This document shows positions 3,968-6,010 of a stretch of 64,000 nucleotides of DNA, piece by piece. Origin of the DNA: Niameybacter massiliensis (GTDB lineage: Bacteria > Bacillota > Clostridia > Lachnospirales > Cellulosilyticaceae); the NCBI RefSeq assembly GCF_001282685.1, contig NZ_LN875035.1:2280001-2344000 (forward strand), given 5' to 3'. The notes under the pieces were generated by a model. It saw only the letters and a program-made list of their open reading frames with translations, had not been told where the DNA came from and did no database searches. The first letter of the stretch is position 1. Every line of letters begins with the position of its first letter. A program made the translations under genes and the position numbers.

Positions 3968-4189
3968 TTATACTAAAGAAATATCTTTTCCATCAGCAAA
4001 TTGTCTTAATGTATCAGTAACAAAATGACTAAACTCACCTTGCATTCTATTTGCTTCTTTAAAATCCTTAATATTAATTGTATTCATCACAACTCCATAA
4101 CTATAGAAAACCAGTCTTACATCGTTTTCACATATAATACCTGTACAATCATATGCTCCTTTTGCATTGTGCACTTTGACCACTCTCAT
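3968..4189 (-). CDS. Small conserved-looking protein of unknown function, 73 aa
   Basis: I do not recognise this family. The protein begins MRVVKVHNAKGAYDCTG and looks soluble, with beta-strand-like hydrophobic stretches (RLVFYSYGVVM) and a charged helical second half. There is no signal peptide or membrane segment. It has a strong ribosome binding site (GGGAGGTGA). The ATG follows it by only three bases, and a GTG two codons later would be better spaced, so the start could be at 4183. It has its own terminator. A 7-bp palindrome (4215-4221 with 4223-4229) lies just upstream and could be an operator. It is the closest gene to the large structured element at 4286-5245 and diverges from it. A real gene is likely given the RBS and terminator. 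Confidence 0.65.
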   Translation of the reverse strand: MRVVKVHNAKGAYDCTGIICENDVRLVFYSYGVVMNTINIKDFKEANRMQGEFSHFVTDTLRQFADGKDISLV

Positions 4190-4285
4190 TCACCTCCCAC
4201 TTACATAACCGTATCATATTTCAAATATGAAATAAACTATACAGCTATATATTTGGAAGTTACTTACAGATACTCACGAATTAGT

Positions 4286-5245
4286 AAAATAAATATTTGT
4301 TTAAGTGAGGGGGTGCTTATATTTAGTCTACTTACGTGAGTTGGCTAGGTGGATTCTCCTCCACCTGCTACACTCCGCTTTCAGAGAAATGTAACTCATT
4401 CAAAAATAATAACGGTGTGAACTCGCTACGCTCAAACAGCACACCTAAAATCATTATTTTTTTATTTCGAACATTTCTTATCTGAAAGCTACGTAGGCAG
4501 ATTCCGGAGAACGCACCTAGCCAGCTCACTGAATCAAGTTTACGAATATGCCTCCCTCACTTTGTGGACTGCGCCGGCGGAGAGATTACTAAACTGCATG
4601 TAGCTTATATTCTAAGTCCATCCTCGAAAAAAGCTCCATGGAGGTCACCCACGCATCACCGCCCTCTTCTACTCAGTTAGGTAAGTTTTCACTTCTAGTG
4701 ACACGCCCTGGAGAGGAAAGAAGAGAAAACATCTCTTCTTTGGAAAGAAAACTTCCAAGTATTTGATAAGGTTTCTTTCTAGTTTGTTCCTGAGCTCAAC
4801 CTATCCTAAAAGGTGAGCGTTAGCAAAGCTACTGTGAAGCCTTGCATGTCTCAATATCTTTTGTTACTGAGTTAAGTAAGATACACTTTGTAGAATTAAT
4901 AGTACTTTTGATCTAAACTCGGAAATGATTAGGCACTTTCACATGAAGGATGTTTAGAAAATGGATTATGTAGTTTAGCTGTCTCTCTACCGGAAGGGTC
5001 TATAATGTGATGGGCTGTAAGGTGAGTTATTGTATGGAAACTTTCTCCGCAGACTTTTTAGAGAGGCTTAGAGAATGGAATCAAACTGGTTTTAGGGAAA
5101 TGTCTGAAGAAAAGTGCACTTCTTTTCTGAGTTTTGACCGTTAGTTTAATGGAATGAACTTAGCCTCTCTTAAAAGGCGAGGACTAGAAGTTGGAATACA
5201 ATAAGCTTGCTTACATGCCCTCACACTTAACCAAATATTTATTTT
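4286..5245 (+). ncRNA. Candidate large structured noncoding RNA or palindrome-bounded element
   Basis: About 960 bases with no plausible ORF and locally about 50% G+C, against AT-rich flanks. The ends are perfect 14-bp inverted repeats (4286-4299 with 5232-5245), extended by TTAAGTG with CACTTAA (4301-4307 with 5224-5230). The left quarter folds as a long imperfect hairpin. GTGAGGG (4305-4311) pairs with 4554-4560, a 16-bp helix joins 4336-4351 with 4514-4529, and a 9-bp helix joins 4377-4385 with 4481-4489. GGTGTG/CACACC lies at the apex. Two mismatches in these helices become G-U wobbles only if the plus strand is the RNA, which weakly favours that strand. Further hairpins occur at 4727-4751 and 4793-4818. 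No terminator U-run is visible at either end. A degenerate mobile element is the main alternative. Confidence 0.5.
4305..4560 (+). repeat. Long imperfect inverted repeat (about 90-nt arms)
   Basis: The arms 4305-4391 and 4472-4560 are complementary over most of their length, with internal loops and bulges; the apex 4402-4461 continues with AAAAATAAT/ATTATTTTT and GGTGTG/CACACC. It is a sub-domain of the element at 4286-5245. Confidence 0.75.
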
Positions 5246-5284
5246 AGTTGCTGTTTCTTCCTTACTATAGTATTTCTATAGAAC

Positions 5285-5327
5285 AAAAAAAGACTTTTAT
5301 AAAAGCTTAGCTTCTATAAAAGTCTTT
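5285..5327 (-). terminator. Terminator of pyrE
   Basis: A 17-bp stem (5291-5307 with 5309-5325, one mismatch) and a run of seven U residues on the minus strand, directly after the pyrE stop. Confidence 0.93.
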
Positions 5328-5338
5328 CAAATCATTAA

Positions 5339-6010
5339 TTATTTTACGCAGTATTCAGCAAGGTATGCTTCCATACGTGCACGCATCTCATCATCAATTA
5401 CAACTTTTCCATCAATTTCTACGTTGTGAAGTGTTTCAATGATTTCTCTTACTGTTACAATTGGGTATGTTTTAATACCAAATTCTTCTTCAATCTCTTG
5501 AATTGCTGTACGATTAGATTGTCCTCTTTCCATACGGTCAACAGAGATGATTAATCCTGCAAGTTCTACATTTGCCGCTGCTTTTAAGATTGGGAAACAT
5601 TCACGAATAGCTGTCCCTGCTGTAATAACATCTTCAATAATAAGTACTTTGTCACCATCTTGAAGTTTGTACCCTACCATTGTACCACCTTCACCATGGT
5701 CTTTTGCTTCTTTACGGTTGAAGCAGTAGTTTACGTCTTTATTATGTTCGTTATTAAGGGCAATTGCTGTTGCTACAGATAATGGAATACCTTTATAAGC
5801 TGGTCCAAAAAGTGCATTCACATCTTCTTTAATATTTTCTTGGATACATTTTGCATAAAACTCACCAAGTTTTGCAGCTTGGTAACCTGTTTTATAGTTT
5901 CCTGTGTTTACAAAGTAAGGTGTTTTACGTCCACTTTTTGTTGTAAAATCTCCAAAAGTAAGTACTCCAGAACGTACCATAAATTCAATAAATTCTTTTT
6001 TGTAACTCAT
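5339..6010 (-). CDS. pyrE: Orotate phosphoribosyltransferase
   Basis: Converts orotate and PRPP to orotidine 5'-phosphate in pyrimidine synthesis, in the cytoplasm. The 223-residue protein has the type I phosphoribosyltransferase PRPP loop VLIIEDVITAGTA at 122-134. It also has the early FGDFTTKSGRKTPYF segment (20-33) and the flexible catalytic loop RKEAKDHGEGG (99-109), whose lysine and histidine contact pyrophosphate. The length fits the longer PyrE subfamily common in Clostridia. The start is supported by GGAGG seven to eight bases before the ATG. It stands alone here, with its own terminator and no other pyr gene nearby; no PyrR-type attenuator was seen in the 78-base upstream gap. Confidence 0.96.
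   Translation of the reverse strand: MSYKKEFIEFMVRSGVLTFGDFTTKSGRKTPYFVNTGNYKTGYQAAKLGEFYAKCIQENIKEDVNALFGPAYKGIPLSVATAIALNNEHNKDVNYCFNRKEAKDHGEGGTMVGYKLQDGDKVLIIEDVITAGTAIRECFPILKAAANVELAGLIISVDRMERGQSNRTAIQEIEEEFGIKTYPIVTVREIIETLHNVEIDGKVVIDDEMRARMEAYLAEYCVK

Follow-up and report, generated by a model that had tools for sequence, protein, structure and literature searches.

A gene-less repeat element at the locus

The window (the whole 64,000-nucleotide stretch of Niameybacter massiliensis DNA that was analysed) contains a repeat element whose left neighbour is a 73-aa minus-strand frame (3968–4189) with its start facing the element, and whose right neighbour is a minus-strand frame (5339–6010) with its stop facing the element. 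The right-hand frame, which presumably resembles orotate phosphoribosyltransferase, has a terminator-like hairpin at 5289–5327. The parts of the element are as follows.

4285–5246, no strand assigned: whole repeat element, left end type A; span shared exactly with other copies in the genome
4285–4313, plus strand: left arm of the terminal inverted repeat, 29 nt, 90% complementary to 5218–5246
4305–4560, minus strand: left-end long imperfect hairpin (minimum free energy folding, alignment A2)
4420–4438, minus strand: left apical module TGTTTGA-GCGTAGC-GAGTT, an internal loop TGTYTGA/GAGTT under a mini-hairpin cap
4563–5005, no strand assigned: middle domain, shortened or partly deleted in other copies
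5006–5225, plus strand: right-end long hairpin (minimum free energy folding, alignment A1)
5101–5133, plus strand: right apical module TGTCTGA-AGAAAAGTGCACTTCTTTTCT-GAGTT, the same internal loop with a longer cap
5218–5246, minus strand: right arm of the terminal inverted repeat, paired with 4285–4313

An earlier, sequence-only reading of this DNA had described about 960 bases without plausible open reading frames, closed by perfect 14-bp inverted repeats that extend into TTAAGTG/CACTTAA and holding an imperfect hairpin of roughly 250 nt at 4305–4560. These descriptions hold. At a 50-aa cut the only frame inside the element is one of 53 aa on the minus strand (4368–4529), to which the end of a 104-aa frame (4025–4339) overlapping the left end must be added, and the terminal inverted repeats are present without a transposase gene in the element. 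An inverted-repeat search of the window placed the perfect 14-bp core and its extension within the 29-nt arms, and the long hairpin is built from the arms 4336–4368/4497–4529, 4377–4388/4478–4489 and others. Two finer points needed correction: of the two local hairpins that had been described, one is present at about 4793–4818, while the other exists but lies at 4717–4741 and not at 4727–4751; and the G+C content, given as locally about 50%, is indeed raised above the 0.344 of the window (0.394 over 4287–5246, 0.425 over 4320–4799) but reaches at most 0.446 in 240-nt windows.

Folded as RNA, the element is very stable on either strand (z = -11.1 on each, with 0 of 20 dinucleotide shuffles as low on either). 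The minimum free energy of the whole element is slightly better on the plus strand (-323.0 versus -314.5 on the minus strand), and for the middle domain the two strands are about equal (-133.2 versus -131.4).

A modular repeat family in the source genome

The search for further copies that the sequence-only reading had proposed was positive. BLAST of the element against its own genome (4.57 Mb in 11 contigs) returned 50 matches, from which 29 further places with full or partial copies were fetched for comparison; a second copy type used as query added at least one weak place, giving about 30 copies, many of them partial. One copy (C11:1180984–1181941) matches window positions 4287–5244 (query 8–965) with 98% identity over 958 bp, and its 1-kb flanks have no similarity to those of the window copy. 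Both BLAST and the flank comparison thus place many copies at unrelated sites.

The copies are modular, with two interchangeable left ends, a deletable middle and a single right end. The right-end sequence (at least 75% of 5000–5230) is found again in 22 of the further copies. Left end A (at least 70% of 4305–4560) recurs in nine, and at least eight other copies carry a left end of type B, about 185 nt long, attached to the same middle and right end. Several copies match query positions 1–473 and 695–965 with about 20–30 bp between them, so that most of the middle is missing. Four copies (L046, L047, L032 and L039, the first two of 61 and 46 bp) have an intact right end and no left end, possibly through one-sided truncation during insertion.

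A 23-base core of the right end was absent from 84,980 genomes of other species, so the recent spread of this family is seen in one genome only. Among 40 relatives, the match was limited to 38–45 bp around the apical module, in two genomes. Neither the 72,556 plasmid records nor the 50,697 phage records searched contain a match to the window element, and a carriage search gave no match in E. coli genomes.

Copies lie beside gene 3' ends

By simple ORF calling, the gaps that hold the 29 further copies are convergent in 12 cases, co-directional in 17 and divergent in none, and 41 of the 58 flanking genes have their 3' end towards the element. Several copies touch the stop codon of a neighbour. 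This placement suits insertion that avoids promoters.

The sequence-only reading had named near-identical copies at many sites with target duplications as the mark of a mobile element. The copies are there, but no target duplication could be demonstrated outside the common ends in 17 copies; AAATATTT stands at both ends, where direct repeats could be hidden. A search for empty sites across species of one genus (g115) yielded none, synteny being broken at about 80% identity. Among the places fetched from the genome by BLAST with type A and type B copies there was no parent transposon with the same ends, nor any autonomous copy of the element. Altogether, the many copies at unrelated sites, the sharp shared ends and the lack of copies in divergent gaps (0 of 29) support the second suggestion of that reading, a non-autonomous mobile element.

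Two opposed hairpins share an apical module

Each end of the element forms a long hairpin that is better formed on one strand, and the two do so in opposite orientations. The left hairpin (4300–4562) has a minimum free energy of -106.1 on the minus strand versus -99.6 on the plus strand, and the right hairpin one of -78.2 on the plus strand versus -62.7 on the minus strand. The structured strand therefore has its 3' end outward at both ends, and no single transcript carries both structured strands. The first suggestion of the sequence-only reading, one large structured RNA on the plus strand, is not supported in that form, since the left end is better structured on the minus strand and the right end on the plus strand. 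It had leaned on G-U pairs that form in the long left helices only on the plus strand; this argument fails for the hairpin on which it rested, the left hairpin of the window copy having one G·T and three A·C mispairs when read on the plus strand. A plus-strand RNA was rejected for the left hairpin, for which the minus strand is better both by minimum free energy and by wobble counts.

The apices of the two hairpins are alike. The left apex is AACTCGCTACGCTCAAACA, and its minus strand reads TGTTTGA-GC-GTA-GC-GAGTT, a mini-hairpin with a G-N-A loop that stands on tandem G·A mismatches. On the plus strand, the top of the right hairpin reads TGTCTGA, a 21-nt hairpin and GAGTT. Both modules are present in 14 of the 29 further copies, always on the minus strand at the left and on the plus strand at the right, and 11 more copies have one of them. 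The caps show paired changes: GC-GTA-GC becomes AC-GAA-GT in other copies, a compensated pair, in the left cap, and the right cap changes from A-T to G-C and from AG..CT to GA..TC (copies L042 and L043). In the stems below, alignment A2 (left end, 10 copies) has 90 predicted pairs, three of them changed on both sides, and alignment A1 (right end, 23 copies) has 74, nine of them changed on both sides.

Mispairs point to the same strands. Read on the minus strand, A2 has 78 G·T versus 3 A·C cells, and read on the plus strand, A1 has 122 versus 12, although folding itself favours G·T in both counts. We also counted isolated mispairs in an arm-to-arm alignment, which treats both strands alike. With this neutral alignment the bias at the right end was weaker (16 G·T versus 7 A·C over 22 related copies), and the right hairpin of the window copy itself had 0 G·T versus 1 A·C. 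By stability, the plus strand was favoured in all 22 right-end hairpins of this genome.

The module recurs across bacteria

The module could be followed well outside this genome. The pattern AACTCGCT-N1-2-CGCTCARACA was found in 12 of 116 relatives and in 16 of 398 genomes of the phylum, with no match for the control in either set, and a version with a free loop was found in 46 of 391 genomes of the class (two matches for the control overall). Among named genome records, at least 118 stretches from several phyla contain the fixed pattern, against a chance expectation, for uniform bases, of about 15 in the whole named-genome collection. Among the matches listed, the bearers include Marinobacter, Haemophilus, Variovorax, Stenotrophomonas, Flavobacterium, Parabacteroides, Fusobacterium, Nitrospirales, Patescibacteria, Desulfobacula, Selenomonas and Lachnospiraceae. 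Viral contigs gave 87 stretches with the module, a count that pools phage and host flank. The Variovorax twin element matches two plasmid records and the Haemophilus one three, in part only.

In most of these places the module sits within an inverted repeat. This holds for 106 of 114 distinct named instances among the matches listed, versus 17 with shuffled arms, and for 47 of 53 in other Bacillota_A, versus 5 when shuffled. In both Parabacteroides records the module lies outside inverted repeats. Of 36 distinct instances in viral contigs, 18 lie in inverted repeats (shuffled, 1) and the other half in no clear inverted repeat. Where modules of other genomes neighbour each other within 700 bp, 17 pairs have the minus-plus arrangement of the window, one is plus-minus and two are plus-plus.

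Near-duplicate hairpins (about 85–87% identical beside the loop) were removed before hairpins, strands and stabilities were counted, as were hairpins with too short flanks or with arm-alignment scores below 25 (the 69-hairpin set) or below 14 (the named-genome, other Bacillota_A and viral-contig sets); of the 118 named loci, seven lay too close to the end of a contig for scoring and eight gave no arm alignment of at least 14. When the best of four offsets is taken, at least six of eight pairs beside the loop are kept in 150 of 195 distinct hairpins; re-dealing the partners 200 times gave 34.6 on average and never more than 47. All four Watson-Crick pairs occur at each position beside the loop, and the 1200 cells there include 42 G·T and 13 A·C. 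Of the homologues with covarying helices that the earlier reading had asked for, the module hairpins are found, and covary, across bacteria; the right end of the family was found in no other species.

The strand asymmetry also recurs. On the TGTYTGA strand, 69 distinct hairpins from diverse contexts have 53 G·T versus 10 A·C isolated mispairs (p = 3e-8). Two sets that overlap partly with these 69 gave 47 versus 19 (named genomes, p = 8e-4) and 22 versus 4 (other Bacillota_A). The TGTYTGA strand is the more stable one in 88 of 95 hairpins (82 of 95 after replacement of the loop); in named genomes, stability favours it by 70 to 36. Judged from these alignments, the stem is free to vary in sequence, and its structure and strand asymmetry are conserved. 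The loops are constrained as well. In a tally of 150 places among the matches listed in the free-loop class search, with at most 10 per genome, R-N-A accounts for 114 of 118 triloops and R-NN-A for 29 of 32 tetraloops; among the same matches, 22 tetraloops are GNYA versus 6 GNRA. We recognised no description of the apical module in the literature searched, but sequence strings rarely appear in the text of papers and the negative carries little weight.

Several places deserve separate mention. Compact twin-hairpin elements with minus-plus modules about 200 nt apart lie in named Pseudomonadota (L275 6450–6900, L296 1600–2100, L318 7290–7740), and further compact minus-plus twins were seen there at L343 7030–7500 and L350 1820–2320 and 6050–6500. 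Several such Pseudomonadota twins are flanked by pyrimidine-purine hairpins, e.g. ACTTTCTTTTGG/CCAAAAGAAAGT, that look like potential intrastrand triplex (PIT) motifs. By eye, several Bacillota genomes have a second internal loop below the apical module, CTAAA opposite TTAACG (on the AACTCGCT strand), in either orientation (L093, L104, L112, L138, L139, L155–L160). In one genome (G320; L140, L153, L168–L174), ten places are listed, of which all but one or two are no more than about 80 bases away from the end of a contig; their inner hairpins are nearly identical, from either recent spread or assembly breaking at the hairpin. In two genomes of one genus (L138, L139), a similar module hairpin directly follows seemingly the same gene, which we take to be CTP synthase; this shared place looks like an old, retained site.

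No match to known RNA families

With Rfam 15, nothing in the window reached gathering thresholds except one tRNA, and permissive filters added five chance-level matches below gathering, of eukaryote type or to sRNAs. Up to E = 1, nothing in the element rose above gathering at 15 loci of this genome. The covariance models that the sequence-only reading had proposed to run (OLE, ROOL, GOLLD, HEARO, raiA and group I/II introns, all from Rfam 15) gave no match, and we rejected a large known RNA on this ground.

A proposed mobile element read as a folded single strand

We consider it an even call that the element is a genome-specific non-autonomous mobile repeat, moved in trans, whose end hairpins act as single strands, probably of DNA. 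The apical module would be the recognition site for a putative protein that acts on a folded single strand, most likely of DNA laid bare by replication. Excision or copying of the element as a single strand would fall to an enzyme acting in trans, and re-insertion would leave no lasting target duplication and would fall in A+T-rich gaps beside gene 3' ends. Opposite structured strands with 3' ends outward match the transferred strands of transposons better than they match one transcript. The loops speak for DNA too: d(GCGNAGC) and d(cGNNAg) form exceptionally stable DNA hairpins and RNA tetraloops prefer GNRA, so R-N-A and R-NN-A loops fit stable DNA mini-hairpins better than RNA GNRA loops. 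Neither line amounts to proof. Single-strand transposition by HUH enzymes leaves no target duplication, with which the 17 copies would agree. On the other side, RNA accommodates G·T wobble no less readily than DNA, the strand bias of the right end is weaker, the middle domain is neutral and the whole element folds slightly better on the plus strand; neither an empty site nor an autonomous copy was found, the recent spread of the family is seen in a single genome, and half of the distinct viral-contig instances lie outside clear inverted repeats. A search for an enzyme for the element found none; the one Y1-type (HUH) gene found in the genome has other ends and no module alongside.

The module, its strand preference and its inverted pairing recur across phyla. 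Something conserved must read the module, and its recurrence in many bacterial groups hints at a widespread machine that recognises it. Our wider proposal, which we put forward tentatively and at a little under even, is that TGTYTGA-[cap]-GAGTT on a free stem is an undescribed, bacteria-wide recognition module of folded single-stranded DNA (or RNA), which a class of non-autonomous elements would carry at either end, facing outward, and which a widely distributed enzyme would serve.

Alternatively, each end could give rise to an RNA or 3'-UTR element of its own, specific to one strand and with a conserved module for protein or RNA binding at its apex; the copies would have spread by some form of transposition and be kept for RNA function. 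Strong folding on both strands, compensatory changes in the hairpins, a strand bias tolerant of wobble and copies near gene 3' ends would all follow, and outside this genome the module lies within 120 nt of the left gene's stop 18 times and of the right gene's once (in the AACTCGCT orientation). Additional element sequence on the far side of the module may, however, be all that lies behind this asymmetry; the structured strand would also run antisense to the nearby gene, and in this genome the orientation is near even (21 left versus 20 right stop-facing genes). Wobble pairs fill just 42 of the 1200 cells beside the loop, and wobble at 3.5% of cells is low for RNA helices; the tetraloops are not GNRA, and no Rfam family matches. 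On balance we think a function as RNA unlikely, though it deserves serious weight.

Two other kinds of mobile element come into question as well. One is an ordinary MITE mobilised by a DDE transposase, for which nothing but the terminal inverted repeat would matter and the hairpins would be incidental or ballast. The 29-nt terminal repeat, the many copies in intergenic sites and an 8-bp A+T duplication that AAATATTT may conceal at the two ends suit such an element, but no duplication appears outside the common ends and diverged copies that lack AAATATTT still keep the apical modules. Moreover, the module and strand bias recur in bacteria whose elements have other ends, which incidental palindromes would not explain, and we regard this origin as improbable. 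More doubtful still, in our view, is a REPIN-like origin, with the only Y1 (RAYT-like) transposase of the genome as the mover. The genome does have a Y1_Tnp gene of 302 aa, and REPINs likewise have twin hairpins in inverted orientation and structure specific to one strand, lie by preference on the 3' sides of genes and leave no duplication; none was detected here. Another genome (G141) even has a 168-aa Y1 frame between two modules (L408 900–2700). That frame, however, is surrounded by GTAG-type palindromes (GTAGGGGCGAC), which are its likelier partners, and the modules lie outside them. The Y1 gene of the source genome is flanked by different repeats, with neither the module nor the element ends nearby; tblastn with eight Y1 proteins matched one of 217 loci around the module or its neighbours, and two genomes (G061, G383) carry modules with no intact Y1 match.

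Comparison with known systems

With the large ornate RNAs (OLE, ROOL and GOLLD) the element shares its size and an elaborate predicted fold; it differs in having no Rfam match, a multi-copy mobile distribution and opposite structured strands at its two ends. The bcr-type repeats of Bacillus cereus are non-autonomous, with a terminal inverted repeat, RNA-like folding and many copies. The element resembles these and MITEs in all four respects and differs from them in its modular ends, its strand-specific end hairpins and the lack of a visible duplication.

REP, BIME and REPIN sequences are short, non-coding intergenic repeats with strand-specific imperfections and hairpins of 20–40 nt. Like this group, with its RAYT (TnpA-REP) proteins, the element is non-coding and intergenic, with paired inverted hairpins and strand-specific imperfections, and no target duplication was seen outside its ends in 17 copies. 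Its hairpins, however, are far longer (about 200–260 nt), what is conserved in them is an internal loop at the apex, tests for a GTAG/CGTC tag were negative, and linkage to a Y1 gene was not seen: where a RAYT gene would be flanked by the same repeats, the flanks of the genome's own Y1 gene hold neither module nor element ends.

The PIT and TM-ECO motifs are described as conserved, intergenic and sometimes paired in inverted configuration (PMC4666352), as the module hairpins are; the parts of that paper available to us do not mention the apical module. In several named Pseudomonadota and Bacteroidota, a pyrimidine-purine hairpin of PIT look follows the module hairpins (3' of 51 of 115 modules and 5' of 22); it was found near 0 of 11 modules of the source genome and 4 of 86 in other Bacillota_A. 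The E. coli TM pair at 164547 was considered as the same element and rejected, as it lacks a TGTYTGA hairpin.

To our knowledge, repeats without genes seldom reach beyond a single genus. In this case that is true of the stems, yet a dozen constant apical bases are common to Bacillota, Pseudomonadota, Bacteroidota, Desulfobacterota-type bacteria and others. The module serves as a 19-base probe, a direct handle for finding its partner. If it acts as RNA, it would be a new widespread RNA motif; should its reader prove to be a recombinase, or a replication protein, that acts on folded single strands, it would mark a new mobility or maintenance system with a breadth like that of REPINs or integron sites.
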